Shown here one piece after another: positions 29,688 to 49,689 of a stretch of DNA of 56,242 nt. The DNA is from Clostridia bacterium. Its GTDB lineage: Bacteria > Bacillota > Clostridia > Oscillospirales > Acutalibacteraceae. Location of the stretch: positions 1 through 56,242 of the forward strand of contig JAFQKF010000043.1 in NCBI GenBank assembly GCA_017397105.1, written 5' to 3'. The stretch's first letter is position 1, and the number at the start of each line of letters is the position of its first letter. The position numbers and the translations under genes were made by a program. The notes beneath the pieces were generated by a model. The model was not told where the DNA came from. It ran no database searches and worked only from the letters and a program-made list of their open reading frames with translations.

Positions 29688-30086
29688 ATGTACGATTCAA
29701 ATCCTTACTTCTACGGCACAGGCCGCAGAAAGAGCTCAGTAGCAAGAGTTCGCCTTTACCCCGGCACAGGCAAAATCACAATCAACGACAGAGATATCGA
29801 TGATTATTTCGGTCTTGAAACCCTTAAGCTCATCGTTCGTCAGCCCCTCGTTCTTACCGAGACAGGCGAAAAGTTTGATATCGTTTGCCGCGTAGGCGGC
29901 GGCGGAGTTACCGGCCAGGCCGGTGCTATCCGTCACGGTATCTCCAGAGCTCTCCTTCTCTACGATGCAGAGCTTCGCACCGCTCTCAAGAAGGCTGGCT
30001 TCCTTACCAGAGACCCCAGAATGAAGGAAAGAAAGAAGTACGGTCTCAAAGGCGCTCGCCGTGCACCCCAGTTCTCAAAGAGATAA
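29688..30086 (+). CDS. rpsI: 30S ribosomal protein S9
   Basis: A 132-residue small-subunit protein with [15 protein letters not shown] at the start, [21 protein letters not shown], and the basic tail [18 protein letters not shown] that reaches the P-site tRNA. The final codons double as the attachment site of the element to the right: the last 13 bases of the gene and two bases after it recur at 36969-36983. The gene stays intact. Confidence 0.97.
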
Positions 30087-30088
30087 TT
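30074..30088 (+). other. Attachment site attL (end of rpsI)
   Basis: CTCAAAGAGATAATT covers the last codons and stop of rpsI. The same 15 bases occur at 36969-36983, just past the integrase gene, which marks the two ends of an inserted element. Confidence 0.8.
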
Positions 30089-30104
30089 ATTTTATCGACA
30101 AAAT

Positions 30105-30147
30105 GGCTTGTTATCAAGGTTTTTGCCTTGTGGCAAGCCTTTTTTGA
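30105..30147 (+). terminator. Nested hairpin terminator after rpsI, inside the element
   Basis: GGCTTG pairs with CAAGCC outside and CAAGG with CCTTG inside, followed by T6. As it lies within the element it can replace the terminator that the insertion displaced from rpsI. Confidence 0.75.
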
Positions 30148-30163
30148 TGTCCGTTTGATGTCC
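30143..30163 (+). other. Integrase arm-type direct repeats, left end
   Basis: TTTGATGTCC occurs twice (30143-30152 and 30154-30163). The same word, once exact and once as TTGATGTC, is found at the other end of the element, as expected for arm-binding sites of a tyrosine recombinase. Confidence 0.55.
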
Positions 30164-30185
30164 GAACAACAAAAAATTTCAAAAT

Positions 30186-30217
30186 GCGGCTGATTTTTCA
30201 TTGTCAGCCGTCTTTTT
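30186..30217 (+). terminator. Second rightward terminator in the element end
   Basis: CGGCTGA and TCAGCCG pair, followed by TCTTTTTT. The rest of 30218-30465 has no gene that I can support; it holds short direct repeats such as CACCTGTTC and CACCGCTTC. Confidence 0.65.
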
Positions 30218-30465
30218 TATGTTTGACTTTTCGTGACAAATGTAAAGTTTTGACAGGTTATTTTCTCGGCGTTCGCTCGGAGTTCGTTCACCTGTTCCTC
30301 ACCTGTTCGGTGCTTTTCTTGCCGCTTCCTCACCGCTTCGTTTCTCTCTGTTCGCTCTATGTTGAATTGAAAATGAAGCATAAGCTTTCTTTTTTATGTT
30401 CACACTTTTTGACACTTTGTCGACAGTTAAAGCAAAATGTTTCAGGTTTTTTTAGGTTGCAAACG

Positions 30466-30497
30466 AAAAAGGCGGAAGCAATAAGCTCCACGCCTTT
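30466..30497 (-). terminator. Terminator of the leftward element genes
   Basis: On the minus strand AAGGCGTGGAGCTTATTG and its partner GCTTCCGCCTT form a stem followed by TTTCG; it lies just after the stop of the gene at 30505. Confidence 0.6.
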
Positions 30498-30504
30498 ATA
30501 ATTC

Positions 30505-30741
30505 TTATGCTGTTGTACTTATAGCTGTCATAACCTTGTAATCTGATTGAAGCTCTGCCGCTTGTTTTGCTGCTTCAAGCTTTTCTGACGGTGTAGCATC
30601 GGGATTTTGCATTATTTCAATCGCCGTTTTCAGCCTTAATACTTTAAGCTCAAAATCGGCGGCTTGCCTGCGTTTCCTCGCTTCTTGGTTTTTCTTTCGG
30701 GTTTCTGCGGCTCTTGCTTTTCGTTCATCTGCAACACTCAA
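30505..30741 (-). CDS. Basic, helical small protein of the element
   Basis: A 78-residue protein rich in Lys, Arg, Glu and Ala in the first half (DERKARAAETRKKNQEARK), almost surely helical, then EIMQNPDATPSEKLEAAKQA. The frame is open further upstream, but an AAGGGGTG box lies six bases before TTG at 30741, which would give a 17-base overlap with the gene before it. Start and function are uncertain. Confidence 0.5.
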   Translation of the reverse strand: MSVADERKARAAETRKKNQEARKRRQAADFELKVLRLKTAIEIMQNPDATPSEKLEAAKQAAELQSDYKVMTAISTTA

Positions 30742-30994
30742 CAGCTTCACCCCTTTTCTTTGCAAGAGCGATTCTTGCTTTTTCTTTGGTTTCTTCGCTT
30801 GCCTTTTCATCTGATGCGAAAAATTCAAGAGCAGATTCGGGCATATTGTCATAGTTATTATCCGTCAATGCTCTCGCAACCATCAGCATCAAATCCAGCT
30901 TTTCATCCGATAAATTAGAAAGCATACACATAATATATTCTTTTTCGATTTCTTCTTTGCTCATATCCTTATACTTTTTTCTCTGTTCGCTCAT
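30725..30994 (-). CDS. Small acidic helical protein of the element
   Basis: An 89-residue protein with SKEEIEKEYIMCMLSNLSDE and LDLMLMVARALTDN, predicted to be all helical, then an Ala/Glu/Lys-rich tail. TAGGAG lies before the ATG at 30994. Similar short proteins occur in Clostridia phages and elements; no function is known. It is translated together with the overlapping gene at 30505-30741. Confidence 0.6.
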   Translation of the reverse strand: MSEQRKKYKDMSKEEIEKEYIMCMLSNLSDEKLDLMLMVARALTDNNYDNMPESALEFFASDEKASEETKEKARIALAKKRGEAVECCR

Positions 30995-31105
30995 TGTTCA
31001 AACTCCTATCTTTAATTTTGTTTGACATACCGAAGCAGGGAGCTTATAATAAACTCGTCACCGATTTTCACGGCTTTGTCACGGCTTCGGTGATTTTCTC
31101 GGCTC

Positions 31106-31342
31106 TTATCCGTTGCTTTGGTCGGCTGTCGGATGAGGGCTTTTCTTTTCGTTTAACTGTGGGGCTATCTGCGTTTTTTCGCATTCTGCATCATCTTCGG
31201 GGTTGTTATACCCCTTCGGTCTGTGACCCATTCTGTAAGGGTACAGAGGGCAATTTTCAACAGAGCAGAAACGAACCGCCGTTCTGCTGTCACAGCAGCA
31301 GTCAAGGCATTTTGCTCTGATTGCCTTTATCGGTGTCAGCAT
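31106..31342 (-). CDS. Cys-rich small phage-type protein
   Basis: A 78-residue protein with KAIRAKCLDCCCDSRTAVRF then CSVENCPLYPYRMGHRP: the pattern CLDCC...C...CPLYPYR is known from many Firmicutes phages and mobile elements, where it is annotated as hypothetical and probably binds zinc. AGAGGTGATG precedes the ATG. It stands upstream of the two small helical genes and diverges from the HTH gene at 31484. Confidence 0.75.
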   Translation of the reverse strand: MLTPIKAIRAKCLDCCCDSRTAVRFCSVENCPLYPYRMGHRPKGYNNPEDDAECEKTQIAPQLNEKKSPHPTADQSNG

Positions 31343-31379
31343 CGCATCACCTCTCTTTTATTATTATAACAACAATATA

Positions 31380-31461
31380 CACTAATTAGTTTATATTGTC
31401 AACACTAATTTTATGATATTTTCAAATATCACTTGATTTTATCAATTATTTTGTGTATAAT
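31380..31461 (+). promoter_or_regulatory. Divergent control region with palindrome and -10
   Basis: ACTAATTAGT is a 10-bp palindrome near 31380, a related ACTAATTTT lies about 20 bases on, and TATAAT near 31456 would drive the HTH gene. This looks like an operator region between divergent element genes; the -35 box is not clear. Confidence 0.4.
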
Positions 31462-31483
31462 AAGCGTAAAGGCAGGTGTAACA

Positions 31484-31699
31484 ATGGCATTAAGTGAAAA
31501 AATAAGAATATTGCTTGTTAAACGCGGGAACATATCCGAAGCGGAGCTTGCACGCCGTTTAGGAATAAGCCCTCAAAACCTCAACAATAAAATGAAGCGT
31601 GATAACTTTACTGAAAAGGACTTGCAGAAAATCGCAGAAGCCCTTGATTGCACATTCAACGCTTTGTTTACTCTCAACGATACAGGCGAAACCCTTTAA
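31484..31699 (+). CDS. Small HTH regulator of the element
   Basis: A 71-residue protein, nearly all one XRE-like helix-turn-helix: GNISEAELARRLGISPQNLN for the recognition part, then KDLQKIAEALDCTFNALF. The start ATG 31484 has GGCAGGTG upstream; the longer frame is not used. It is the only rightward gene inside the left part of the element and is followed by a terminator, so it acts as an independent regulator, perhaps a Cro/repressor-like one. Confidence 0.8.
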   Translation: MALSEKIRILLVKRGNISEAELARRLGISPQNLNNKMKRDNFTEKDLQKIAEALDCTFNALFTLNDTGETL

Positions 31700-31708
31700 T
31701 GAACGCAT

Positions 31709-31745
31709 AAGGCTATAAGCTCCGATTAGAGTTTATAGCCTTTTA
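31709..31745 (+). terminator. Terminator after the small HTH gene
   Basis: AAGGCTATAAGCTC and GAGTTTATAGCCTT pair with one mismatch-like G-U, followed by TTACTTTT. It may serve both strands. Confidence 0.8.
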
Positions 31746-31752
31746 CTTTTGG

Positions 31753-32073
31753 TCAATCCCTGCACAAGCCCATTTCAATGCCTACAAGTCTGATAAAATC
31801 AGTATGCCATTGTCTGCCCGTTCTGTCGCTGACGAAGCATTTTAAACAAGCCCCTTGCAAACTATGACTTTGTTTAAAGAATACTAAATCAATCAGTTTC
31901 AGCCGTTCTTCACCGTTGCGGAGTAACTTTGTTTTTTCAATCGCCCGTTGTACCGCTTCACTTTCAAATTGTCTGATGCAAGATTCTTCAGGATTCTTTT
32001 GAAAATTTCCGTATTCCCTCGCAACTCGCTTTGCATATCCCCACCATAAGATGTTTGTTCTGTGCCTTGCCAT
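31753..32073 (-). CDS. Phage late-regulator-like protein (sigma region 4/ArpU-like)
   Basis: A 106-residue protein. The C-terminal half, LKLIDLVFFKQSHSLQGACL then RTGRQWHTDFIRLVG, matches the pattern (RL.LI..V.., SHTL.GAA, RWH..FI) I recall from ArpU/RinA-like or sigma-70 region-4-like late regulators of Firmicutes phages. It would turn on late or packaging genes. AAAGGGGCGG precedes ATG 32073. Its presence without late genes suggests control of a helper phage or loss of the late module. Confidence 0.6.
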   Translation of the reverse strand: MARHRTNILWWGYAKRVAREYGNFQKNPEESCIRQFESEAVQRAIEKTKLLRNGEERLKLIDLVFFKQSHSLQGACLKCFVSDRTGRQWHTDFIRLVGIEMGLCRD

Positions 32074-32193
32074 TGACAAAACCGCCCCTTTGCAATAGAA
32101 TTATATTGTCATTATAAATCATTTCGCATCGAAGCGGCTGCCTTTTCAGGTGGTCGCTTTTTCTGTTCTTGTTTTTGGCGTGACTTTATTCAA

Positions 32194-32871
32194 TTATCCG
32201 TTTACCGCCTGTGCGAATGTTTCAAAGTCAGCAACTCCGCCGAAATCTCTCATAGCATCCTTTTCTGTGTCAAAATCTTTGTCAGCTTGCCACGAATAAA
32301 GAGCATTATTGCTGTGATTGACCGAATATATGCTTGCTTTCTCTGCCATTTCTGCCCTGCTGTTGCATTTTTCAAGCGTGCAAAGTCTTTTTGCGCTGTC
32401 GTGTAAATCCTTAATATGTTCAAGAATAGCTGCTGTGCTTTCTTTACTGAATACAAGCCCGTGATAATTGTTTTTCGCCGCTATTTCGTCAAGCACCGAT
32501 AAACAAAGCGGATTCCCTTCAAGTGTTCGTGATGCCTGATGCAGCTCATCGGATGATACCTTATCACGCATCTTAAGAGCTTGAAGAATTGCAAGCTGCT
32601 CGGCTGTGGGTGCATCAATTTTCTGTGAAACTGCACTGCTTTTCATACCGTTTATAATTTCTGTGAAAACAGGGCGTGTTCTGTCCTGCAGCTCTTTAAT
32701 GGCTTTGTTTCTCTCGGCTTCTGCCTTTTTCTTTTCTTCATCATAACCGTTGCTGCCTTTGTATTTTTCAAAACTCTGCATTTTTTCGTCATAAGTCTGC
32801 CAAATGGCCCGGAGTTCTGCACGGTAGTTTTTCACCGTATTGTGATACTTTGTGATTCTGTTTTCTGACAT
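32194..32871 (-). CDS. Coiled-coil protein of the element
   Basis: A 225-residue protein with a highly charged, coiled-coil N-terminal half (KYHNTVKNYRAELRAIW to about residue 75) and a C-terminal part without known motif. Its pattern is like scaffold-type or structural hypothetical proteins of phages, but I cannot name the family. GAAAGGAT precedes ATG 32871; the frame's first ATG at 32895 lacks a site. It is 20 bases from the helicase-loader-like gene. Confidence 0.6.
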   Translation of the reverse strand: MSENRITKYHNTVKNYRAELRAIWQTYDEKMQSFEKYKGSNGYDEEKKKAEAERNKAIKELQDRTRPVFTEIINGMKSSAVSQKIDAPTAEQLAILQALKMRDKVSSDELHQASRTLEGNPLCLSVLDEIAAKNNYHGLVFSKESTAAILEHIKDLHDSAKRLCTLEKCNSRAEMAEKASIYSVNHSNNALYSWQADKDFDTEKDAMRDFGGVADFETFAQAVNG

Positions 32872-32891
32872 TTTATAAATCCTTTCTTTGC

Positions 32892-33497
32892 TCAATTACT
32901 ATGTGATGTTTCAGCACATATTTTTTGCTGTTTTGGTAAATCGCTTCTTGCTTCAATCATATTCCGCATTTCTTTAAGCTCTTTTCTTTTGTGGATTGTC
33001 GGAATACTTTTGAAAAATCGGTTGCGTTCAAATTTCAATTCATCATCATCGGCACGGGCTATTCTTATCATTTCGCCCTCGCCGCCGACAAATTGTTTGA
33101 TATCTTCGGGCATACTCTCCCACAAGCTGTGGAATTTTTCCCTTGCATTTTGACCTTGCGTTTTTCCGTTGCTCTCCGTCATTGTATAACCAAAGTTATA
33201 AACATAGCGCCTTGCTTCTTTCAAATATTCGGTGAAACTATTCCATAGTTCCTCATCTGTCGGAGCATCCGCCCTCTGTAAATCGTTTATCTGTTCAATG
33301 ATATCCGCAGGTGTCGGCGGCGTTTTGCAGATTTTCAAACACATCATAAAAGCGATTTCTAATTCTTTGTCCGCATAATCCGCAAAGAGTATTTGCCACA
33401 TATTAACGAGCAATTCAACATTGGTTTCTTTTGCGTAGTACGGATATATTGTTTTTATTGCTCCGATAACCTCAAGAATTTTATTTTTACTTGCCAT
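32892..33497 (-). CDS. Helicase loader/inhibitor-like replication protein (G39P type)
   Basis: A 201-residue protein. The N-terminal 75 residues, with KTIYPYYAKE and VNMWQILFADYADKELEIAF and PPTPADIIEQI, follow the pattern of SPP1 G39P-like helicase loader/inhibitor domains. Such proteins bring DnaB-type helicase to an origin bound by an organizer protein. It lies next to the replisome-organizer-like gene, nine bases away, which supports this. The C-terminal part is not conserved to my knowledge. Confidence 0.6.
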   Translation of the reverse strand: MASKNKILEVIGAIKTIYPYYAKETNVELLVNMWQILFADYADKELEIAFMMCLKICKTPPTPADIIEQINDLQRADAPTDEELWNSFTEYLKEARRYVYNFGYTMTESNGKTQGQNAREKFHSLWESMPEDIKQFVGGEGEMIRIARADDDELKFERNRFFKSIPTIHKRKELKEMRNMIEARSDLPKQQKICAETSHSN

Positions 33498-33506
33498 AGT
33501 TCACCT

Positions 33507-34241
33507 CTATTCATACATTGATTGCAGCTGCAACATAAAATCATCTGTTGCATTCGTGGATTTACTCTGTGGCGGTTTGGCTTTATCTTTCTTTGCCCAA
33601 TTTCGGATGGTTGCAAGGTGGTTTTTATATTTCTTGCCTGTGCTTGCTATATAACAGCTTAACCGTTCTATGCGTTCCTCATAGTCAAGAGGAAATTCAG
33701 CCTTAAGCTTTTCAAGGTCAGCATCAGATAAAAGAACATTGTTATATTCGCCGTATTTATGACGGCACGGAGAAGAATATATATTATCCTTTTTATCTTT
33801 CTTTTCTTTATTATCTTTATTGTTTGTGTCCCTTCCGCTGTCCTCTGTGGTGTCCTCTTTGCTGTCCCGTTGGTCGGGGCGTTGGTGTCCCTCTGTGGTG
33901 TCCTCGTCAGATTGATAAACCCCATAGTTTTCAATGGTTAAGGTTGTCCCGTCTGCTGTCCCTTTGGCTGTGACCATATTGTCATCTTTCAACACCTTCA
34001 AAAACCTATCTACTTTTTTAACATCCCAACCCCAACGGTCAGCAAGGGTTTTTCTGCTCGTGAACAGTTGCCCCCGTTTTATGATTTTTAAATTACCGTT
34101 AATCAATATTTTTTTATCTGAATGATTAGCAAGTAATAAAAGGTCAAGAAAAGCCCTGCCACGGTCAAACGGTTTTTCAAGCCAAAGATAATGCCCCTGT
34201 ATGTCCCGATATAATTTTACATACCCGTAATTTTTACTCAC
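33507..34241 (-). CDS. Phage replisome organizer-like protein
   Basis: A 244-residue protein with an N-terminal winged helix (about 1-110: GYVKLYRDIQGHYLWLEKP, KRGQLFTSRKTLADRWGWD, VDRFLKVLKDDNMV) typical of phage replisome organizers, then a Lys/Asp-rich hydrophilic linker (about 112-150) and a C-terminal domain like DnaD C-terminal regions (ERIERLSCYIASTGKKYKNH, ATIRNWAKKD). It binds the element's origin and recruits helicase. The linker-coding DNA is a likely site for the origin, as in other phages. Confidence 0.75.
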   Translation of the reverse strand: MSKNYGYVKLYRDIQGHYLWLEKPFDRGRAFLDLLLLANHSDKKILINGNLKIIKRGQLFTSRKTLADRWGWDVKKVDRFLKVLKDDNMVTAKGTADGTTLTIENYGVYQSDEDTTEGHQRPDQRDSKEDTTEDSGRDTNNKDNKEKKDKKDNIYSSPCRHKYGEYNNVLLSDADLEKLKAEFPLDYEERIERLSCYIASTGKKYKNHLATIRNWAKKDKAKPPQSKSTNATDDFMLQLQSMYE

Positions 34242-34253
34242 GGTTTACACCTC

Positions 34254-34550
34254 TTAACTGTCAACTGTTTCGCCGTGGGCTTCAATGTACCTTTTAGCTG
34301 ATTGTTTCGCCTTTTCAATCTCTCGCTGCCTTGATGTCATCTGACGGTAAAAACGCTTCACATCGTCAACGGTTGAGGGCAAGAAATATCCTTGATGACT
34401 GCTGCATATAACCTCGCCGTTTCGCCTTAATGCGTTTATGCAGATTGTTATATCTCTACCGTTCATATTGAGGATTTTTGAAAGCTGTCTGACCTTAACA
34501 GCGTTTTCTTCACCTTCCGATAAAATGCTCATAATATCTAATGCTGCCAT
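34254..34550 (-). CDS. Winged-helix small protein of the element
   Basis: A 98-residue protein with a helix-turn-helix-like stretch VKVRQLSKILNMNGRDITIC and ALRRNGEVICSSHQGYFL, which is a typical wing after a recognition helix. The C-terminal third is a basic helix. It resembles short phage DNA-binding proteins that precede the replisome organizer; function is probably regulation or replication. It abuts the excisionase-like gene, sharing one base at 34550. Confidence 0.65.
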   Translation of the reverse strand: MAALDIMSILSEGEENAVKVRQLSKILNMNGRDITICINALRRNGEVICSSHQGYFLPSTVDDVKRFYRQMTSRQREIEKAKQSAKRYIEAHGETVDS

Positions 34551-34747
34551 TATATCGCCGCCTTTCTCGATTCTTCATCAATCCATTCAAGGAAAAGAGG
34601 ATAGTTTATCATTGTTTTGTTTCCGATGCGAATGCTCGGAGGCGGATTTTTTGATTTGAGCATCAAACGCAGGGCATATTCACTCAATATCCCCGTTGCT
34701 GCCGTTTCTCTGACTGTTAAAAAGGTTTTTTCTGTGGCTTCGCTCAT
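34550..34747 (-). CDS. Excisionase-like HTH protein
   Basis: A 65-residue MerR/excisionase-like DNA-binding protein: FLTVRETAATGILSEYALR for the helix-turn-helix and IRIGNKTMINYPLFLEW for the wing. Small proteins of this type direct tyrosine integrases toward excision and often also act as regulators. Its start ATG overlaps the stop of the upstream small gene by four bases. Confidence 0.72.
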   Translation of the reverse strand: MSEATEKTFLTVRETAATGILSEYALRLMLKSKNPPPSIRIGNKTMINYPLFLEWIDEESRKAAI

Positions 34748-34923
34748 TTACTTGCCCCCTTCAACTTTGCAATAATGCTTTTGATTTTCGCCTTTTCTTC
34801 GGGGTTAAGCTCTTTGCGGAGCTTACGGCTGAAACTGCCGTCTGTCATACCCAATTCATCGGCTATCTGCCAAAGCTTCACCCCTGCGTTTTTTGCTTCT
34901 GTTCTGATGTCAAGATTTTTCAT
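34744..34923 (-). CDS. Small HTH protein of 59 residues
   Basis: This gene is short: 59 residues starting at the ATG 34921-34923, with AAAGGGTGAT upstream. The stretch AKNAGVKLWQIADELGMTDG followed by SFSRKLRKEL fits a helix-turn-helix like the short phage regulators known in Firmicutes. The end, KAKIKSIIAKLKG, is basic. It is the first gene of the leftward operon and overlaps the excisionase-like gene by four bases. Confidence 0.75.
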   Translation of the reverse strand: MKNLDIRTEAKNAGVKLWQIADELGMTDGSFSRKLRKELNPEEKAKIKSIIAKLKGASK

Positions 34924-34965
34924 TTAATCACCCTTTCATTTTTGTAATTGTTTTTGTGGTTGTTC

Positions 34966-34994
34966 TTGACAATTTCAATTATAAATGATAGAAT
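34966..34994 (+). promoter_or_regulatory. Promoter of the XRE regulator-integrase pair
   Basis: TTGACA at 34966-34971 and TAGAAT at 34989-34994 with a 17-base spacer. It lies in the 123-base gap between the divergent leftward and rightward operons, the likely lysogeny-type switch. Confidence 0.75.
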
Positions 34995-35046
34995 GGTTAA
35001 TATAAAGGGAATAATTGGCGAATATACGCAAAAGAGGTAACTGAAA

Positions 35047-35712
35047 ATGGACTATATAACGGACAAAAAGAAAATCGGTGAAAACCTTCAACGAATAAGA
35101 AAAAAGAAATACAAGACACAAGAAAGCTTTGCTGAAGCTTTGGGCTTGTTGGATAGAAAAACAATTAGTAAATGGGAAACGGGCGAAACAGAAATACCGA
35201 TGACAAGACTCCCTGAAATATGCAATTTGCTTGATTGCGATATGGACTATCTTTTTGGAAAAATTGATGTTCCTCGAAAAAACACAGAAATAGCCATGAA
35301 AGAAACGGGACTATCCGAAAAATCTATTACAAAGTTAAACGAAATAATGAAGTCTTGTCATCTTGATTGGTGGTCGCTCGTTTTTAATGAATTTATTGAA
35401 AACGAAAAGTTTGCAGCTTTTCTTGGCTACTTATCCTTATACGCAACCCATAAATCAGAAAAAATAACTCATAGTTATTACAGCATTGACACAAAAGACA
35501 TAGCGTTTACAAGAGCACAGAATGCTTTCGTTGAAATAGCAAGCGAAATTGAAACAGTAATGACAAAAAAAGCAAAGACAAATGGCGATTATAGAGGATA
35601 TCTTTTAATAGCTGATACTGCATATAAAGAAGGAAAAATCACAAAGGATGAATACCAAAAAGAGATTGCGAAATGTTACGAAGGGTGGCAAGTAAATGGC
35701 AACGATAAATAA
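35047..35712 (+). CDS. XRE-family repressor-like regulator
   Basis: A 221-residue protein with an N-terminal XRE helix-turn-helix (about 8-65: NLQRIRKKKYKTQESFAEAL, TISKWETGETEIPMTRLPEI, LLDCDMDYLFG) and a C-terminal helical domain of unknown type. No LexA-like Ser-Lys protease motif is visible, so induction would not be by RecA cleavage. AAGAGGTAA precedes the ATG. It overlaps the integrase gene by 17 bases and probably represses the leftward operon. Confidence 0.8.
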   Translation: MDYITDKKKIGENLQRIRKKKYKTQESFAEALGLLDRKTISKWETGETEIPMTRLPEICNLLDCDMDYLFGKIDVPRKNTEIAMKETGLSEKSITKLNEIMKSCHLDWWSLVFNEFIENEKFAAFLGYLSLYATHKSEKITHSYYSIDTKDIAFTRAQNAFVEIASEIETVMTKKAKTNGDYRGYLLIADTAYKEGKITKDEYQKEIAKCYEGWQVNGNDK

Positions 35713-36829
35713 ACGTGGTAATACATTTCAGATTGTTGTATCTCTCGGACTTGATGTCAACGGCAAGAAAATACGCAAAACAACAACCTATAAACCGCCC
35801 GAAGGTACTACACCGAAGAAAGCTGAAAAGCTCGCCGCCGAATATGCCGCAGAGTTTGAAAGAAAATGCAAGGGTATGACCTCATTAAATGAAAATATGC
35901 GATTTTCTGAAATGGCTGAATGGTTTATTGAAAACTACGCCAAAAACGAGCTTAAAGAGATAACCGCATATAATTATGAAAGTCAGATTAAAAATCACCT
36001 TTTGCCCGAACTCGGCAACATAAAATTGAAAGATTTCACCCCTGCAAAGATAACAGCATTTTTCAAAACCCGTGAATATGCCCCTGCAACCTGTCGCAAG
36101 GTTTATGTTATATTGCAAAGCGTTTTTGCCCGTGCCGTTGAGCAAGGATTCATCAAAGAAACGCCCTGCACAAAAGCTGTTATTTTACCGAAAGCAAAAC
36201 AGGCAAAAGAAAAAAAGCCCTTTCTTGACGAACATCAAGCAAAAGAGCTTTTATCAATGGTCAGCGATTATTCACAGTTTAACACAATAATCAAAGTGCT
36301 TTTATATACGGGTATGCGTTCGGGTGAATGCTTGGGTCTGCGTTGGCAAGATATCGACTTTGATAACAGAACAATTCATATTGAGAACACATTAACCGAT
36401 GTCGGCGGAAAACATTGGCTGCAGCCGCCCAAAACAAAAACAAGCAACAGATATATAGGACTTTCCGATACATTGGCAGAGATATTCAGAGAACAGAAAA
36501 AGCATCAGGATGAAAAAGCCGACAAGCTCGGCAAGAGCAACAAGCACCCCGAAATGGTATTCACTACCGAAAGCGGAAATTATGTTGACCGTTCATTCAT
36601 CAATACACAATTCAGAAAATTTGTTAAGGGAACATCTTTTGATTTTGCAACCTTGCACACATTAAGGCATTGCAACGCAACGCTTTTAATTAACAGCGGA
36701 ATTGATTTGAAGATTGTTTCTGAATTGCTCGGTCACTCCGATGTTTCAACAACCGCCAACGTATATGCAGATGTTCTTGAAAGCTCAAAAGCAAGGGTTG
36801 CTGATTTGATATCCTTGAAGCTGCAATAA
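35696..36829 (+). CDS. int: Tyrosine-type site-specific integrase
   Basis: A 377-residue phage integrase. The N-terminal arm-binding domain (1-60) and SAM-like core-binding domain (about 65-150) precede the catalytic domain. Visible catalytic residues are Arg208 in TGMRSGECLGLRW, the LHTLRH motif with His and Arg, LGHSDVSTT, and the nucleophile Tyr357 in NVYADVL. It would recombine the 15-bp rpsI-end site. The gene ends 140 bases before attR, and TTGATGTC arm-type repeats lie directly after its stop. Confidence 0.93.
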   Translation: MATINKRGNTFQIVVSLGLDVNGKKIRKTTTYKPPEGTTPKKAEKLAAEYAAEFERKCKGMTSLNENMRFSEMAEWFIENYAKNELKEITAYNYESQIKNHLLPELGNIKLKDFTPAKITAFFKTREYAPATCRKVYVILQSVFARAVEQGFIKETPCTKAVILPKAKQAKEKKPFLDEHQAKELLSMVSDYSQFNTIIKVLLYTGMRSGECLGLRWQDIDFDNRTIHIENTLTDVGGKHWLQPPKTKTSNRYIGLSDTLAEIFREQKKHQDEKADKLGKSNKHPEMVFTTESGNYVDRSFINTQFRKFVKGTSFDFATLHTLRHCNATLLINSGIDLKIVSELLGHSDVSTTANVYADVLESSKARVADLISLKLQ

Positions 36830-36830
36830 T

Positions 36831-36850
36831 TTGATGTCTTTTTGATGTCC
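36831..36850 (+). other. Integrase arm-type repeats, right end
   Basis: TTGATGTC (36831-36838) and TTTGATGTCC (36841-36850) match the pair at the left end of the element. Confidence 0.55.
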
Positions 36851-36968
36851 AAAGATAAAAAACGGTATTGCAAAATCCGAAACATTATGCTATGATACAA
36901 AAAGCAAATCGTTATATATCAACGCTTTTCGGCACACTTCAAAACGACACAAAACATCGAGCTTATAA

Positions 36969-36983
36969 CTCAAAGAGATAATT
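36969..36983 (+). other. Attachment site attR
   Basis: The 15 bases CTCAAAGAGATAATT repeat the end of rpsI exactly; after them the two ends differ. It marks the right end of the element. Confidence 0.8.
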
Positions 36984-37005
36984 TATCCCGAATGGGGATT
37001 ATCGA

Positions 37006-37050
37006 AAACCCTTGGAATCTCAACGGTTCCAAGGGTTCATTTCTTTTTTA
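37006..37050 (+). terminator. Terminator right of attR, likely the original rpsI terminator
   Basis: AACCCTTGGAA and TTCCAAGGGTT form a perfect 11-bp stem with T6 shortly after. Lying 23 bases beyond attR, it is where the rpsI terminator would be in an empty site. From 37051 to 37268 the DNA is AT-rich and shows no gene. Confidence 0.8.
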
Positions 37051-37268
37051 GAATAATTTCAAAATCCAAAATGTCAATATTTTGTCAATAATTAAGAAAA
37101 AACACAGAAAAACAACTTGTTTTATGAAAATATATTTTTACACTTAAACCATAGAATTCTGATATATCTTTTAAAAATTTTAATCTTAATGTTGACATAC
37201 AAACTCACAAAACCAAGCCTTATTTTTTGTTGCTTTTCACGAAATAACAGAAAATTATAAAATAGGGG

Positions 37269-37297
37269 TTGCAAATTTGCGTTTTCATGTCTATAAT
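37269..37297 (+). promoter_or_regulatory. Promoter of the DUF3800-associated RNA
   Basis: TTGCAA (37269-37274) and a perfect TATAAT (37292-37297) are spaced by 17 bases. Transcription should start near 37304, well upstream of the DUF3800 gene. Confidence 0.75.
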
Positions 37298-37303
37298 AAA
37301 AGT

Positions 37304-37400
37304 GCAGGTAGAAATACGCTGTATACTCGTGTAATCGAATTAACGTTTAAGCGATATGTAATATCGTCGACCACGAGGCCGCCTTCGGGCGGTTTTTTTT
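37304..37400 (+). ncRNA. Structured RNA upstream of DUF3800 gene
   Basis: A 97-nt unit with its own promoter and terminator and no ORF. An outer stem, CTCGTG (37326-37331) with CACGAG (37372-37377), encloses a possible weak hairpin and a perfect one, CGATAT-GTA-ATATCG (37352-37366). The terminator hairpin CCGCC-TTCG-GGCGG (37379-37392) and T8 follow at once. RNA motif classes called DUF3800 have been reported beside genes of this family, so this is likely a member or relative; which class I cannot tell. The layout promoter-RNA-terminator-gene is also that of type III toxin-antitoxin systems. Confidence 0.65.
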
Positions 37401-37402
37401 TA
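37379..37402 (+). terminator. Terminator between RNA and DUF3800 gene
   Basis: CCGCC-TTCG-GGCGG with T8. It ends the small RNA; read-through would feed the protein gene 22 bases on. Confidence 0.88.
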
Positions 37403-37424
37403 AGTTTTAGGTGGATGAAAAAAC

Positions 37425-38114
37425 ATGGATATTTTTGTATATTCAGATGAATCTGGAGTTTTTGATTATAAACATAATAAGTATTTCGTTTTTGCCGGAG
37501 TAGTTTTTCTGAGCAAAACTGAAAAAGATAAATATACCAGGCTGTATACAAAAGCAGAGAAAGATATAAGAACTTCTGAGAGCATTGCCAAAGAAACGGA
37601 AGTAAAAGCAACTGGGATATCAAACAAAAATAAAGGTAAACTATTTCGTTCATTAAACAAGGCGTATAAATTCGGTGTTGTCATCGAGCAGAAAAGGATT
37701 CTCCAAAAAATATATGCAGACAAGAAATCAAAACAAAGGTATTTAGATTATGCATATAAAATAGCCATCAAGAGATTTTTTGAGAAAGTTATTTCAGACG
37801 GAATCATAAATCCCTCAGAAGTAGAGAATATTCGCTTTTTTATAGATGAACATTCTACAGCTACGAATGGACGATATGAATTAAGAGAGGCTTTAGAGCA
37901 AGAACTTAAATGGGGTACTTTTAATTATTCATGGAATACATTTTATCCTCCCGTTTTTCCTAAAGTTAAATCAGTCACGGTGGATTTTTGCGACTCCGCT
38001 TCAAAAACATTAGTTAGGGCAGCAGATATTGTAGCGAACAAACTATATTATAAAGCAAATTCTGGTCAAAAATCATCTTTGGATTCTAATTTTATCATAA
38101 CCTATTTACCATGA
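37425..38114 (+). CDS. DUF3800 protein
   Basis: A 229-residue protein beginning MDIFVYSDESGVFD and KYFVFAGVVF, with FFIDEHS in the middle and the closing VRAADIVANKLYYKA: the DESG start, central Asp and the (Q/R)AAD end motif are the DUF3800 signature, thought to be an RNase H-like nuclease fold. AGGTGGA precedes the ATG. It sits between two mobile elements, 22 bases after the structured RNA, and has its own terminator. A defence or toxin role guided or held by the RNA is a hypothesis. Confidence 0.82.
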   Translation: MDIFVYSDESGVFDYKHNKYFVFAGVVFLSKTEKDKYTRLYTKAEKDIRTSESIAKETEVKATGISNKNKGKLFRSLNKAYKFGVVIEQKRILQKIYADKKSKQRYLDYAYKIAIKRFFEKVISDGIINPSEVENIRFFIDEHSTATNGRYELREALEQELKWGTFNYSWNTFYPPVFPKVKSVTVDFCDSASKTLVRAADIVANKLYYKANSGQKSSLDSNFIITYLP

Positions 38115-38128
38115 TTCGATAAAATCAT

Positions 38129-38178
38129 ATTCCTCTTATAGCTTTGCACTAACAGCAAGACCATAAGAGGAATTTTTA
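38129..38178 (+). terminator. Terminator of the DUF3800 gene
   Basis: ATTCCTCTTAT and ATAAGAGGAAT form an 11-bp stem with an internal small hairpin in the loop, followed by TTTTTATG. Confidence 0.7.
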
Positions 38179-38184
38179 TGCAAA

Positions 38185-38223
38185 AAACACAGATTCGGTT
38201 TAACCGCCGAATCTGTGTTTTTA
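38185..38223. terminator. Bidirectional terminator
   Basis: AAACACAGATTCGG and CCGAATCTGTGTTT pair perfectly with short loop and flanking A- and T-runs, between the DUF3800 cassette and the leftward gene at 38256. Confidence 0.88.
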
Positions 38224-38255
38224 GTTAAACTGTCATATTATTTGAAACATTACCA

Positions 38256-38654
38256 TTAAACTGAAAGATTGTCCAAGAAATCTCTGATATCATCTTTTTC
38301 AAGTTCAGGAGAGCCCCAAAAGCCATAATAAAGAGTTGATACTGTTTCTGAAGAGTACATTTCTATAACTTTATGTAACGCATCTGCTTCAATTTTCATA
38401 TGTTTTCTCGATGTAAATTCATCTTGTTTTACCATATCGAAAAATTCTGAACGTATGGTTTCTTCGCTGTGCTTGGAGTCGCCCACGATAAAGTAACGCC
38501 AATCAGCGGTATGTTGAACTTTATTGCCGTTTTTATTAAGATGTTCAAACTTTGCAAGATGTCCAGCAGCATGTATATGCAACTTTTTATTGGCATAGTC
38601 CTCACTATTCAGGATTTCTTCAAGTTCTGCTCTGTTTTTAATAATACTAAACAT
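38256..38654 (-). CDS. Unknown protein next to the second integrase
   Basis: A 132-residue soluble protein, acidic at its C-terminus (ELEKDDIRDFLDNL). GAAAGGAATT precedes the ATG. I do not recognise the family; the stretches HIHAAGHLAKFEHLN and YFIVGDSKHSEET could hold catalytic or metal-binding His but this is only an impression. It follows the integrase gene by 44 bases on the same strand, so it is probably cargo at the end of the second element. Confidence 0.6.
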   Translation of the reverse strand: MFSIIKNRAELEEILNSEDYANKKLHIHAAGHLAKFEHLNKNGNKVQHTADWRYFIVGDSKHSEETIRSEFFDMVKQDEFTSRKHMKIEADALHKVIEMYSSETVSTLYYGFWGSPELEKDDIRDFLDNLSV

Positions 38655-38698
38655 AATTTAATTCCTTTCATTTTTAGATTTTGTTGTTTGATTGTTGA

Positions 38699-39937
38699 TT
38701 ACCCGTTCCACACAAGTGAAGCGAATTTTTCGTTTGCGGCTTTCTGAGCATCTTCATTGCTATGTACATATAACTTAAGTGTTATTTCGATTGATCTGTG
38801 TCCGAGCTTTTCGGAAACGGTTTTGATATCCGCTCCTTTTTGAATCATAAGCGTTGCCATTGTGTGTCTGAACTTATGAGGGTGGCAATCTTCAATGCCG
38901 TACTTCTCACCAAATTTTCTGAGATACGCAGTAGGCGCCTGAGGGTTTATTCTTTTGCCGTCAAGGTGTGTGAAGATATGTTTTGGTGTCGGCAAATTCT
39001 GCCCCTCAACAACCTCTTTCTGGAGTTCTTTCCATTTTGCAAGAATTTCCATAACCTGAGGATTGGCAAAAACCACTCTTTTCTTTTTGTTTTTGGTTTT
39101 TGTGTCGTATACGCCTTTGCCTTCTGTGTACTGTGCATTGTTCACAATATGAATTCTGCCGCTTGTGAAATCTATATCTGCCCATCTGAGACCGCAGGCT
39201 TCACCGCGACGCATTCCTGTGTCAGAAAGAAGGTAAATCATTGTCTGCCACATCAAGGGCTCTTTTTCAGAGCAAATCAGAATATTTTTCAACTCTTCAA
39301 CGGTAAACGTTTCGACTTTTTCTTCGCCTTCGTTATCAACGGGCTTTTCTATATTTTTCATCGGATTTGATACAATCAGGTTTTGCTTTACGCACCACGT
39401 AAGAAACGCTGACAGAGTTGCATAATGCTTTCTGACTGTGGAAATTTTGAGATTGCAGTCATACGAAAGGGAATCAATATAAGCCTGACAATCCTTTTCA
39501 CTGATGTCTTCAAGCTTCTTTTTTCCGAACACCGTCAGAGCACGGTTCATTGTGGTTCTGATACCGATTATGGTATTGACTTTCTTTTTGCTCTTGGTTT
39601 TATTTATATAGAATTCGAATCCGTCGGAAAAAATTATCTTTTTGGCATTCTCGGCGTTCTTCTCTGCCAGCAACCTTGCCTTTTCAAGCTTCAAAGCTTT
39701 GATTTCTTCACGCGTTTTGACTTCGCCTCTGTCGCAAGCTGCCTGAAAATGAGCTTTTGCAATTTCAAGCTCTTTTTGCTGGCGCTTTTTAGCCCACTTG
39801 TACCAGTCTTCAGGCAATTTCCAAATCATTGAATAGGGAGTGAGCTGTTTGCTGTTGACGTCATAGCCTCTGGACACCTTGATTCTGAACCCTGTCAATT
39901 CGTTGTTTTTGTTTCTGTATTCCTTAGCGCTTGCCAT
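38699..39937 (-). CDS. int: Tyrosine-type site-specific integrase (Tn916-like)
   Basis: A 412-residue recombinase. The N-terminal part has an AP2-like arm-binding segment, a long coiled stretch (KEIAKAHFQAACDRGEVK order differs slightly) and a core-binding domain, then catalytic motifs SDTGMRRGEACGLRWADID, PHKFRHTMATL, LGHRSIEIT and the C-terminal Tyr in LKLYVHS. ATG 39937 lies 11 bases from AAAGGA and is preferred over the upstream in-frame starts. It serves integration of the second element and pairs with the excisionase-like gene upstream. Confidence 0.9.
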   Translation of the reverse strand: MASAKEYRNKNNELTGFRIKVSRGYDVNSKQLTPYSMIWKLPEDWYKWAKKRQQKELEIAKAHFQAACDRGEVKTREEIKALKLEKARLLAEKNAENAKKIIFSDGFEFYINKTKSKKKVNTIIGIRTTMNRALTVFGKKKLEDISEKDCQAYIDSLSYDCNLKISTVRKHYATLSAFLTWCVKQNLIVSNPMKNIEKPVDNEGEEKVETFTVEELKNILICSEKEPLMWQTMIYLLSDTGMRRGEACGLRWADIDFTSGRIHIVNNAQYTEGKGVYDTKTKNKKKRVVFANPQVMEILAKWKELQKEVVEGQNLPTPKHIFTHLDGKRINPQAPTAYLRKFGEKYGIEDCHPHKFRHTMATLMIQKGADIKTVSEKLGHRSIEITLKLYVHSNEDAQKAANEKFASLVWNG

Positions 39938-39978
39938 TATTTTTTTCATCCTTTCATTTGTAATTCTTGAATCGTCCA

Positions 39979-39998
39979 CCCCTTCTGAGCAGAAGGGG
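39979..39998. promoter_or_regulatory. Perfect 20-bp inverted repeat between xis and int
   Basis: CCCCTTCTG and CAGAAGGGG flank a 2-base centre. It lies 41 bases before the integrase start; on the minus strand no T-run follows, so it may attenuate or control int rather than end transcription. Confidence 0.5.
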
Positions 39999-40249: not shown

Positions 40250-40516
40250 TTATTTTTTCTGAGTTGCTTTTTGTTTGCTTTTGCCTTTCTGCTTTTTCTT
40301 ACCGGACTTTTTCTTTGGGGTTTGAGGACCTCTTTCGCAAGAGTAAAACCTACAGCGTTTTTTGTTGGGGTTCAGGTCGTTACGGAGTCTGCAGTACGTG
40401 CCGCCCCAATATGTGCGTTCGCAGTGATAGCAGCGGGAGCAATCGCAGGGGATGGGGTTAATTTCTCCATGTTCAATTGCGTTCATTGGTGTTCCGATGT
40501 GTCCTTTCAGCTTCAT
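40250..40516 (-). CDS. Cys-rich mini-protein, copy A
   Basis: An 88-residue basic protein with IPCDCSRCYHCERTY, then GTYCRLRNDLNPNKKRC: six cysteines in the first 55 residues, probably a zinc-binding fold. A Lys-rich tail of about 25 residues follows and may bind nucleic acid. It is the most diverged of three tandem paralogues; AAAGGAATT precedes the ATG. I know no function for the family. Confidence 0.7.
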   Translation of the reverse strand: MKLKGHIGTPMNAIEHGEINPIPCDCSRCYHCERTYWGGTYCRLRNDLNPNKKRCRFYSCERGPQTPKKKSGKKKQKGKSKQKATQKK

Positions 40517-40545
40517 AAAGGTAATTCCTTTCTTTGATTTTGTTT

Positions 40546-40770
40546 TTATTTTTGCTTGGGGCTTTGTTCACGGTCTTTGGAATTCACTTGCTCGAAAAAC
40601 CTGCAACTTGTTGCGTTGGGGTTCAGGTTGTCAAGGATCCTGCAGTATGTGCCGCCCGAATGCATGCGCTCGCAGAAAAAGCAACGGGAGCAATCGCAGG
40701 GGATGGGGTTAAGCTTTTTCTTGTGTTCTACCGAGTTCATCGGTGTGCCAAAACGTCCTTTTAAGCTCAT
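40546..40770 (-). CDS. Cys-rich mini-protein, copy B
   Basis: A 74-residue paralogue with the same core, IPCDCSRCFFCERMH then GTYCRILDNLNPNATSC, and a hydrophilic tail. It is nearly identical to copy C in the core. AAAGGAT lies before the ATG. The N-terminal LKGRFGTPMNSVEH is shared with copy A. Confidence 0.7.
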   Translation of the reverse strand: MSLKGRFGTPMNSVEHKKKLNPIPCDCSRCFFCERMHSGGTYCRILDNLNPNATSCRFFEQVNSKDREQSPKQK

Positions 40771-40787
40771 AAAGATAAATCCTTTCT

Positions 40788-41015
40788 TTAGTTTTTTACC
40801 GAGTTTTGCTTGGGATGTTGCTCCCGGTCTTTGGAATTAACTTGCTCGAAAAACCTGCAACTTGTTGCGTTGGGGTTCAGGTTGTCAAGGATCCTGCAGT
40901 ACGTGCTGCCCGAATGCGTGCGCTCGCAGAAAAAGCAACGGGAGCAATCGCAGGGGATGGGATTGAGCTTTTTGTTGGGGTTGATTGCGTTGATTGGTTT
41001 TCCTTGTTTTCTCAT
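40788..41015 (-). CDS. Cys-rich mini-protein, copy C
   Basis: A 75-residue paralogue: IPCDCSRCFFCERTH, GSTYCRILDNLNPNATSC and a tail close to that of copy B, but a different N-terminus (MRKQGKPINAINP). GAAAGGAA precedes the ATG. The three genes lie head to tail directly downstream of the Rep gene, so are probably translated from the same message. Confidence 0.7.
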   Translation of the reverse strand: MRKQGKPINAINPNKKLNPIPCDCSRCFFCERTHSGSTYCRILDNLNPNATSCRFFEQVNSKDREQHPKQNSVKN

Positions 41016-41086: not shown

Positions 41087-42937
41087 CTATTCTCTCTTAC
41101 TGCGAACATGCCTGTTGTGCAATATCGGATCAAACGATCTTGGCTGAGGACGATGAATGCTATTGATGAAAATTGCATTGACTTTTGCAAAAAAAATGTT
41201 TTGCTTGTGTTTTTTTACTATTTTGTGTGTGGGTTTGCGGGAGACAACAGAAACAATCTTTTTTTGTTTCTTATCTGGAAATATTGCGTGTGTGTCAGTT
41301 CGCCTGTATATGCTCTTAAAAAAGTTTATTCTTTTATCGAGCCGAGTGTATATTACGCTTATACCAAGTTTGCTTGTAAGCTCGACACAGTCGAAATACA
41401 GTTCATCGTCTTTTTTATGGGCGGCAGGCGCACCGTTTTCGTTTATGTATTTCAAGAAAGAAAAGATGTTTTGCTGACGTCTTTTAATATAGCGTGGATA
41501 ATCATGTGATGCGCGATTTGGATCGGAAAGGTACTTTTTCTTTTCTTTTTCAAAGTGTGCGGTTAAGAGTGACCAATATTCTTGCTCTGAAACAAAGTCT
41601 AAATGAAGTTTATGATGTGTGATCAATTTGATAATATCTTTGTTGCTGGTAAGGACATCCTTGACGGTTCCGAAATCATCGTAGAATTTCAGAGGCTTTT
41701 TGCTACATATTTCTATACGAAATATATTTTTCTTTATGTGATACGAATCGGCAGTGTCTTTAGTGGAACTGCCGTCGTATTTCGTAGAACCGCTGTCTTC
41801 ATCGCAAGAATCACTGTCTTCATCATAAGAATCGTCATCGTCTTCGTAAAAATCACGTTCGTATTTGTAAGATTCATCCTCATCTTCTAAATAAGAATCC
41901 TCGTCAGCAAAAAAATCAATGTCAGTATAGAATGGATTAAAGTCTAAATCTGAATGACGAATCTCATCTTTGTCAGGAACATACTTGTCCTTGTCTTCGC
42001 AAGGTGTGTGTTCGTCTTTAGAGGGAACAGATTTGCTTTCACAAGGATTAGGTGTGCTTTCCTCAGGTTCTATATCATCTTTTAAAGGAATGTACCAAAA
42101 ATCATCTGGGGAAGAATCGCTGGTGTCTTCGCAAGAGGAACGTTCGTATTCAGAAAAATCAGATTTGCTTTCACGAGGAGCAGGGATGCTTTTCTCAAAT
42201 TCCATGTCCTCTTCTAAAAGAGCGAGCCAAAACTCTTCATCGTCGTCGAAATAAGAATCCTCGACTTCAAAAGAATCGCACTTGCTTTCGCAGGACTCAG
42301 GTATGTCTTCCCTGTGCTCAGTGGAATCCTTCATTGTTTCTTCGCTCTTGTCGTAGACAACAATATCCTCTGAATCAGAAGCGTGACAAAATGATGTTTT
42401 ATAATCATACTTTTTACTGCCTCGTCTGCCGGGCTTGTGATAAGGGAAATACATAGATTTGAACACTCTGAAAAATTCTTCTATTTGCTCAGGGTTGTCG
42501 GCGTCGGTGGAAACACTTCTGTCAACACGAGTGATTTTGAAATTTTCAAAATCTATTTTAGGGCCGGCTTCTGTTGGGAAAATCTGTTCTTCTTCTATTA
42601 ACTTGTTTATAGAACAGCATATATCGTGGCAATCTGAACGATATACTCCCGTGACATTGTCGCCGAAGAAAACTTTTGGGACAGAAAATCTAACTTTTAC
42701 TGTTCCAACTTTTGCTTCTACCCCTTTTTGCTCTTTGTCAGGTTTAAATGTAAACAAAACTGTACCGTTTAGGTGCTTGACATCTTTTTGCCAATAATCA
42801 CCGTTGTCTTCGTGCTTCCAACCGTATTTTTTACCTATCATTGCGCAGCAATGGCATTTGGCTTCGATTGTATCAATGAAGATTTCATGTGGTTTTGTCG
42901 GGTTATTCAGCTTTTTAATTAAGTCGTATTTTTTCAT
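41087..42937 (-). CDS. rep: Gene II/X-type replication initiator with large acidic insertion
   Basis: A 616-residue protein. The N-terminal 200 residues (VGTVKVRFSVPKVFFGDNV, FENFKITRVDRSVS, DIVVYDKSE) and the part from about residue 400 (NIFRIEICSKKPLKFYDD) look like the rolling-circle replication initiators of filamentous phages and plasmids (gene II CRI and X families). In those, the YDK and RIE motifs are close together; here about 200 Asp/Glu/Ser/Cys-rich residues lie between them. ATG 42937 has GGGTGAAC upstream. It would nick the element's double-strand origin. The family call is by pattern, without a search. Confidence 0.6.
   Translation of the reverse strand: MKKYDLIKKLNNPTKPHEIFIDTIEAKCHCCAMIGKKYGWKHEDNGDYWQKDVKHLNGTVLFTFKPDKEQKGVEAKVGTVKVRFSVPKVFFGDNVTGVYRSDCHDICCSINKLIEEEQIFPTEAGPKIDFENFKITRVDRSVSTDADNPEQIEEFFRVFKSMYFPYHKPGRRGSKKYDYKTSFCHASDSEDIVVYDKSEETMKDSTEHREDIPESCESKCDSFEVEDSYFDDDEEFWLALLEEDMEFEKSIPAPRESKSDFSEYERSSCEDTSDSSPDDFWYIPLKDDIEPEESTPNPCESKSVPSKDEHTPCEDKDKYVPDKDEIRHSDLDFNPFYTDIDFFADEDSYLEDEDESYKYERDFYEDDDDSYDEDSDSCDEDSGSTKYDGSSTKDTADSYHIKKNIFRIEICSKKPLKFYDDFGTVKDVLTSNKDIIKLITHHKLHLDFVSEQEYWSLLTAHFEKEKKKYLSDPNRASHDYPRYIKRRQQNIFSFLKYINENGAPAAHKKDDELYFDCVELTSKLGISVIYTRLDKRINFFKSIYRRTDTHAIFPDKKQKKIVSVVSRKPTHKIVKKHKQNIFFAKVNAIFINSIHRPQPRSFDPILHNRHVRSKRE
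41740..42334 (-). repeat. Imperfect tandem repeats coding the acidic insertion
   Basis: Within rep, units such as CESKSDFSEYERSSCEDTSD and CESKSVPSKDEHTPCEDK, then many (D/E)-D-S repeats, show expansion of short DNA words (AGAATC...TCTTCATC). The region codes for a low-complexity, strongly acidic chain. Confidence 0.8.
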
Positions 42938-43090
42938 ATAGTTCACCCAAAAAAAATAATGAAAAAACACTTCCTACTTAAATTCTGTAAGAGTTTTTCA
43001 GCTAAAATGTTTTCCCAATAACTAATTTTTTGAGAAAGCGACAAGAAAGGTCATCTTTTATAGCGATAAAACTTGAAAAAGAGGGCGGAT

Positions 43091-45674: not shown

Positions 45675-45702
45675 ATTATAGCAGAAATAATTTGAATGTC
45701 AA
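45675..45702 (-). promoter_or_regulatory. tracrRNA promoter
   Basis: On the minus strand TTGACA (45702-45697) and TATAAT (45680-45675) are spaced by 16 bases; the start would be near 45668. It lies within 45 bases of the cas9 start codon, so the tracrRNA promoter occupies the cas9 leader DNA. Confidence 0.8.
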
Positions 45703-45719
45703 TATATGGAGGCAATTTT

Positions 45720-49676: not shown

Positions 49677-49689
49677 TGAGGTGACAGTT

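Follow-up and report, generated by a model that had tools for sequence, protein, structure and literature searches.

The nearest tested precedent for the locus described here is AbiF-RCd22, a type III-like system of a Clostridioides difficile prophage in which a sigma-A promoter, an RNA of ~100 nt with an Rfam motif (RF03085), a terminator and the protein gene follow one another with no promoter between, and in which the toxic protein is bound and neutralised by the RNA, whether this is supplied in cis or in trans (PMC12373285). The same promoter-RNA-terminator-gene layout is found in a cassette at positions 37269-38178 of a stretch of 56,242 nucleotides from a Clostridia bacterium (Acutalibacteraceae; assembly GCA_017397105.1, contig JAFQKF010000043.1), which was analysed whole and is called the window below. 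Here, an RNA that is a full-length member of the Rfam family DUF3800-I (RF02969) precedes the gene for a member of the Pfam family DUF3800 (PF12686). AbiF, however, is an Abi_2-family protein whose RNA carries two motif copies, whereas the window protein is predicted to be RNase HII-like, its RNA has one unrepeated fold, and the pair occurs in more than one gene arrangement. The RNA-terminator-protein order is also that of the type III systems ToxIN, CptIN and TenpIN; it is common to the clade of the window protein but not to its sister clade. As in those systems, the RNA is proposed to restrain a nuclease. Compared with type III, the window RNA is without tandem repeats, for which reason we do not claim canonical membership, the best fold match of the protein is RNase HII-like and the order is not fixed. 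DUF3800 RNAs have been catalogued as motifs without a known job, and the 2017 description of the DUF3800-I family reportedly placed it upstream of DUF3800 genes. Four additional covarying pairs are given for the family in the Rfam 15 paper (PMC11701678). To the RF02969/PF12686 pair we add a fold model, copies of the RNA without the gene, and arrangements in which the RNA is downstream or on the opposite strand. The pair is known, and ordinary at the window locus; its relatives inform the mechanism, and the RNA is very probably a trans-acting partner of the protein and most likely its antidote.

The DUF3800-I RNA is the sole Rfam match above cut-off across the 56 kb window. The match, at 37297-37403 on the forward strand, scores 107 bits against a cut-off of 44.2 (E 2.4e-16) and covers the model completely (positions 1-115 of 115). 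An earlier reading of this DNA from its letters alone (the sequence-only reading) had proposed an undescribed system and suggested a covariance search against the DUF3800 RNA models; that search returned this full-length match, and the RNA is already catalogued. Its predicted minimum free energy is -33.4 kcal/mol (z -2.84; 3/200 shuffles equally good), and its own genome, in an assembly that is 76% complete, yielded one copy. Within 37270-37430 we found no direct repeats of at least 10 nt and one Rfam match only.

The anatomy that the sequence-only reading had described, namely a promoter, a CTCGTG/CACGAG outer stem, a CGATAT-GTA-ATATCG hairpin, a terminator, the DUF3800 gene and a 3' terminator of its own, was confirmed. 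The sigma-70-type promoter (TTGCAA-17-TATAAT, 37269-37297, forward strand) matches the consensus at 10/12 positions. Taken alone this match carries little weight, since the region 37100-38260 holds 8 promoter-like sites against 5.0 expected; its fixed place in relatives does carry weight. According to the Rfam alignment, the RNA begins with a 5' hairpin, P1 (37303-37323), followed by a three-way junction (37326-37377, also supported by an alignment of 70 RNAs) made of the outer stem P2, the 3-bp hairpin P3 (37338-37347), a joining segment and the hairpin P4 (37351-37367). The intrinsic terminator of the RNA occupies 37375-37403, the terminator scan itself giving 37375-37396. To the stem and hairpin of the sequence-only reading, which gave an RNA of 97 nt, the Rfam model adds P1 and the 3-bp hairpin, and from the promoter spacing the transcript probably starts near 37302, with P1 included. 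After a gap of 21 nt comes the DUF3800 gene (37425-38114, forward strand; 229 aa; PF12686 score of 55.2 bits against a cut-off of 21). A hairpin at ~38129-38173 and the T-run behind it (38129-38178, same strand) are the probable terminator of this gene (-17.7 kcal/mol, z -4.52), a hairpin that a simple terminator scan did not list.

The fold of the RNA is real and is kept by compensatory changes. When 47 RNAs were aligned with MAFFT, standard pairs filled 95.2% of the pair cells, and two-sided changes occupied 172 cells against a shuffled mean of 42.1 and 15-27 in slid controls. A covariance-model alignment of 70 RNAs, which leans towards its own structure, gave 384 against 83.0. Compensatory base changes in homologous loci, named in advance by the sequence-only reading, are thus abundant. 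In the 70 RNAs, 95.6% of P1 cells are paired and P3 keeps its pairing while varying (AU 59, UA 9 and GC 2 at one pair); the junction GA and UUAAGCG are invariant in 70/70. Many of these RNAs were chosen by a pattern containing most of the invariant letters, but the 25 of the 70 that were chosen by protein agree. The first RNA set came from pattern scans and is skewed towards the conserved core; claims of conservation therefore draw in addition on RNAs located through the protein or with the Rfam model. One pair, 46/86, of the structure applied to alignment A3 was unsupported, with 28/46 cells unpaired. The genome pattern scan gave 39 matches, 30 of which fit our RNA model R1 and 9 of which do not (L028 only partially, E 0.23); this split is a sorting and not independent proof, because R1 was built from most of those 30. 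One genome scoring 39.9 bits, below cut-off, was left out because R1 did not find it (G638), and matches in Iodobacter, Massilia and MT837050, which cover only 23-41% of the query, were set aside unused.

In the close subfamily the pairing is, on the loci compared, obligate from the protein side. A search by protein only returned 36 viral loci, several of them near-copies. Two end at a contig edge and were excluded (L106, L110); in all 34 testable loci the RNA immediately precedes the gene on the same strand, with an RNA-gene gap of 7-22 nt in 33 and a weak match in the other (L108; 23.3 bits, 72 nt). In a draw of 391 genomes from the class, the subfamily protein was present in 4, all with the RNA, while the RNA was present at E 0.001 or better in 7 and above cut-off in 6. 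Two of these six (G550, G747) are without the subfamily protein, G747 having a distant DUF3800 elsewhere. The RNA is rare: it was found in 2/148 relatives and 3/398 genomes of a phylum draw, the window's own genome being counted in each.

The order of the two parts is not constant. At two loci found by the Rfam model (L066, L067), the RNA begins 16 nt after DUF3800 and its promoter-like site reaches into the end of the gene. L111 and Streptococcus phage Javan110 (L056) are ordered likewise. A profile of these four returned 11 viral loci, some of them near-copies, with the RNA downstream on the same strand in 9/9 testable cases; the other two end with the gene. In a tree of 52 proteins, the 10 downstream-type proteins formed one clade with support of 100/100. 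A further pattern scan gave 31 stretches, of which 29 (all but L111 and L124, already included) were examined together with 2 others. Among these 31 loci, DUF3800 precedes the RNA on the same strand in 22 (3 split; 6 on contigs already counted), follows it in 1 (L205, on the contig of L108) and is on the opposite strand in 2 (L186, a weak cut match with E 0.0003, and L208, which is broken), while 6 are without DUF3800 in the DNA examined. Given the reversed and opposite-strand arrangements, the RNA cannot be only a cis-acting 5' leader, and comparison of the loci indicates that it very probably acts in trans.

To judge from its relatives, the RNA is a gene of its own with its own promoter-like site. 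We scored promoter-like pairs whose -10 box falls 3-11 nt before the RNA start in the covariance model. Pairs with at least 9/12 matches precede 46/54 RNAs upstream of DUF3800, 14/17 lone RNAs and 9/9 downstream RNAs, compared with 7.0% of 16,000 shuffles. In 15/17 lone RNAs and in all 9 downstream ones, the end of the -10 box precedes the RNA start by exactly 4 nt. A separate count put the best -10 box at exactly 39 nt ahead of the core in 28/46 loci, the rest varying partly with P1 length.

A number of RNAs stand alone. The 30 RNA loci of the genome scan comprise 20 with DUF3800 (some cut by the stretch examined), 3 with broken pieces of it (L035, L037, L041) and 7 without DUF3800 in the stretch examined (L013, L017, L029, L030, L033, L045 and L051, the last with only 306 nt 3' of the core). 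Further lone RNAs occur at L005, L112 (L115 is the same RNA), L113 and L114, in genomes G550 and G747, and in Mycoplasma phages (3/7 records examined). Several intact copies sit in phages and recall the pseudo-ToxI of phage PhiTE (PMC3475682). Lone and paired RNAs score alike (medians 100.0 and 94.3 bits, P 0.63), and two metagenome-assembled genomes each have a paired RNA as well as a lone one (L032/L033, L031/L013). RNA without protein is what an antidote predicts, and these copies suggest one, although the same picture would result if the protein had recently been lost.

The neighbours of the lone copies are varied. At L005 and L112 the RNA follows an endolysin gene; at L112 and L115 it also lies 20 nt before SocA/Panacea and PemK-like genes, and a Panacea gene is near L033 as well. 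In a 69-kb phage contig the RNA (L113:1311-1411) stands directly before a tRNA-Thr gene with no obvious promoter. It lies between the end of an Abi_2/AbiD gene and hicA and hicB-like genes at L114, and beside a VapE-like gene at L030. In Mycoplasma prophages of two host species (L052, L053, L057), the lone RNA has a dnaB-like helicase gene on one side and two paired genes on the other, the first of which matches AbiEii in L052; the L053 RNA has lost pairs. In an Enterococcus faecium-like prophage population, DUF3800 is split by insertions in 3/13 contigs (L195, L199, L203; compare L207), with the RNA intact in all. The inserts carry transposase-type open reading frames (ORFs) of the Mutator family (L195) or rve-type (L199 and L203, one below the Pfam cut-off in each).

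The window protein is predicted to have an RNase HII-like fold, the best structural matches of its model being RNase HII and other RNase H-fold proteins. D8, E59, D141 and D201 are invariant in 9 sequences from both clades and, from their place in the fold rather than by superposition, appear to occupy the catalytic positions of RNase HII. The protein differs from RNase HII in its low identity (16%), in the DUF3800-specific invariant E59-x-K61 and in a basic block around KKSKQRYLDY. A catalytic rearrangement is described in one source (PMC10910872). A sequence search of the PDB gave two chance-level matches only (E above 0.5). The PADLOC-DB 2023 defence models contain no family for the window protein, and among 23 DUF3800 homologues two of these models were matched, by one member each (best E 0.0028). 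In the literature searched, with the wider searches judged mostly by title, we found no experimental function for DUF3800 or the DUF3800-I RNA.

We propose, with a probability of about 0.58, that the cassette encodes an RNA-restrained nuclease, a toxin-antitoxin-like module carried as defence or maintenance cargo, in which the protein would be the toxin and the RNA the antidote that inhibits it. A constitutive promoter would drive a stand-alone RNA of ~100 nt, consisting of the 5' hairpin, the three-way junction with its GA...UUAAGCG core and the terminator. The DUF3800 protein, as an RNase HII-fold nuclease, would bind this RNA in trans and be held inactive by it. Should a phage or competing element stop transcription or deplete the RNA, the nuclease would be freed to attack nucleic acid, which would end the infection or make losing the element costly. 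In the window clade, the short RNA-gene gap suggests that the protein could be made by read-through of the RNA terminator, which would keep the RNA in excess. The sequence-only reading had drawn the parallel with type III toxin-antitoxin loci, which is apt as a mode of action, but the RNA-terminator-protein order on which it relied is not essential, and with reversed order in the sister clade and two opposite-strand loci, read-through into the protein gene cannot be the general mechanism. RNA-only copies, several of them on phages, would on this proposal protect against DUF3800 modules.

The same obligate pairing, with lone RNAs as remnants, would be expected if the RNA activated the protein, and this possible but unlikely alternative, in which RNA and DUF3800 form an active ribonucleoprotein nuclease, also accommodates the invariant junction core and the nuclease-like fold. 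DUF3800 proteins are, moreover, accessory nucleases in some CRISPR loci, according to two sources (PMC10910872, PMC12669027). An activator would, however, leave the RNA-only copies useless, and copies with an intact fold and a promoter-like site are common; across the 391 genomes the protein was never found without the RNA, while the RNA was found without the protein. RNA-only copies would equally suit an RNA that base-pairs with other transcripts, perhaps through the invariant UUAAGCG, with the DUF3800 neighbourhood secondary. We consider such a regulator improbable: the close-subfamily protein is never without the RNA (34/34 and 9/9 testable loci), and an RNA so rare and patchy (7/391 genomes with an E of 0.001 or lower, 6 above cut-off) is unlike a housekeeping regulator. 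A riboswitch-like leader attenuating read-through into DUF3800 fits the window clade, where RNA and terminator stand directly before the gene with little room for another promoter. It is very improbable all the same, as the sister-clade RNA follows the gene and has its own promoter-like site, two loci have opposite strands and some RNAs have no gene. The reversed order refutes such a leader as the sole role, and attenuation is at most an added layer. Least credible of all is an RNA-guided nuclease like TnpB or IscB, brought to mind by an RNase H-type fold encoded on mobile DNA beside a structured RNA that may precede or follow it. The unpaired runs of the 70 RNAs include no guide-length stretch: variation is largest in the P1 loop (median 4, maximum 12 nt) and the terminator loop (median 5, maximum 40), and within the fold the joints are short and UAA never varies. 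A guide of the OMEGA type is disfavoured by this want of a variable guide-length segment.

Several observations weigh against an antidote. Some lone copies show decay, as in the Mycoplasma phages (80.8 for L053 against 100.2 for L052); two lone RNAs, L113 and L068, are without a good promoter; and many occupy places from which DUF3800 may have been lost. Near-copies are numerous among the viral loci. The split genes of the E. faecium-like prophages are weak evidence, because all contigs were found through the RNA, and the asymmetry in the 391 genomes rests on very few genomes, among them that of the window and one (G786) in which the protein gene is broken. In addition, most other DUF3800 genes are without a recognised RNA.

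This last point concerns the wider family. In another, Pfam-wide class draw, DUF3800 was present in 29/382 genomes. An Rfam scan of 20 DUF3800 loci outside the subfamily found a DUF3800-XI RNA upstream in 3 and no match in 17. Scanning 26 other DUF3800 loci with R1 gave four weak matches of 18.7-24.5 bits (L162, L166, L167 and L169, the last three near-identical). The sequence-only reading had held that homologues regularly lacking the RNA would count against its proposal; none of the close homologues with DNA available lacks it, but among these other loci only 4/26 gave even weak matches. All four lie just downstream of the gene and have promoter-like sequence and a UAAGCG hairpin (L162:1262-1341; L166:2221-2274; L167 and L169:1309-1362), with a clear terminator at L166, L167 and L169. 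An Rfam scan of L162, L166 and L169 found no match at these stretches, which may be unlisted relatives of the RNA. Tentatively, and with doubt outweighing confidence, we suggest that DUF3800 proteins and their RNAs form a separate class of RNA-antidote systems, with an RNase HII-fold nuclease held in check by a free-standing three-way-junction RNA in any arrangement, unlisted UAAGCG-hairpin relatives downstream of distant DUF3800 genes, and phages or satellites that carry the RNA alone as an antidote.

The cassette lies between two mobile elements, as the sequence-only reading had stated; its view that a free-standing structured RNA forms a pair with DUF3800 and is carried as cargo is likewise supported. 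The elements stand in tandem at the 3' end of rpsI (30074-36983; 38184 onward) with a variable slot between them. Element 1 (30074-36983) is bounded by 15-bp direct repeats, CTCAAAGAGATAATT, at 30074-30088 and 36969-36983, and has an integrase at 35696-36829. The DNA at 36984-37111 is found after rpsI in relatives, and the cargo slot extends from there to the end of element 2 (37112-38183), with other genes in its place in relatives. Element 2 holds, at 38256-39979 on the reverse strand, a 132-aa ORF and a tyrosine integrase (38699-39979). When the slot was compared in 45 genomes of the genus, 4 had the whole right flank and an SLFN_AlbA_2 gene in the slot (G006, G008, G024, G033). In G011, with only ~100 nt of right flank, the slot holds an AbiEi-AbiEii pair and an AlbA_2 gene. 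With the left piece present, G023, G028 and G036 have only short ORFs without a Pfam match, and G020 has next to nothing. AlbA_2 and AbiE genes in the same slot are a better argument for defence than the nearby CRISPR locus to which the sequence-only reading had pointed. The cas9, cas1 and csn2 genes at 45696-51546, some 7.5 kb from the cassette, form a locus that we take to be type II-A by its csn2; the relation is one of proximity only, and nothing links the cassette to the Cas9 locus. Elsewhere, the cassette adjoins integrases or endolysins: 105 of 177 listed neighbours were scanned, 9 match phage integrase, and endolysin families also lead. It is also carried by a satellite phage (L054) and a Lactobacillus plasmid (L055). 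Next to the slot, a 39-nt palindrome at 38184-38222 forms a strong hairpin (z -8.68 for 38180-38230) and recurs at several places in genus genomes. Farther along, tandem 254-nt repeats (40345-40977) stand beside the gene (41087-42970) for a protein of 627 aa that has a replication domain of the Phage_CRI (G2P-type) family.

For the biology of the family, the simplest idea, that of a 5' control element, falls with the loci in which the RNA follows the gene or lies on the opposite strand, and the RNA-only copies narrow the question to whether RNA supplied from elsewhere silences the protein. DUF3800 proteins have also been described as RNase H-fold accessory nucleases of type V-A2 and VI-F CRISPR loci, some of them with TPR domains (PMC10910872, PMC12669027), whereas the window gene stands alone with its RNA. 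If the RNA is indeed an antidote, this would give a function to a protein family that is widespread and is found alongside CRISPR effectors as well, and the copies carried by phages could be read as RNA counter-defences.
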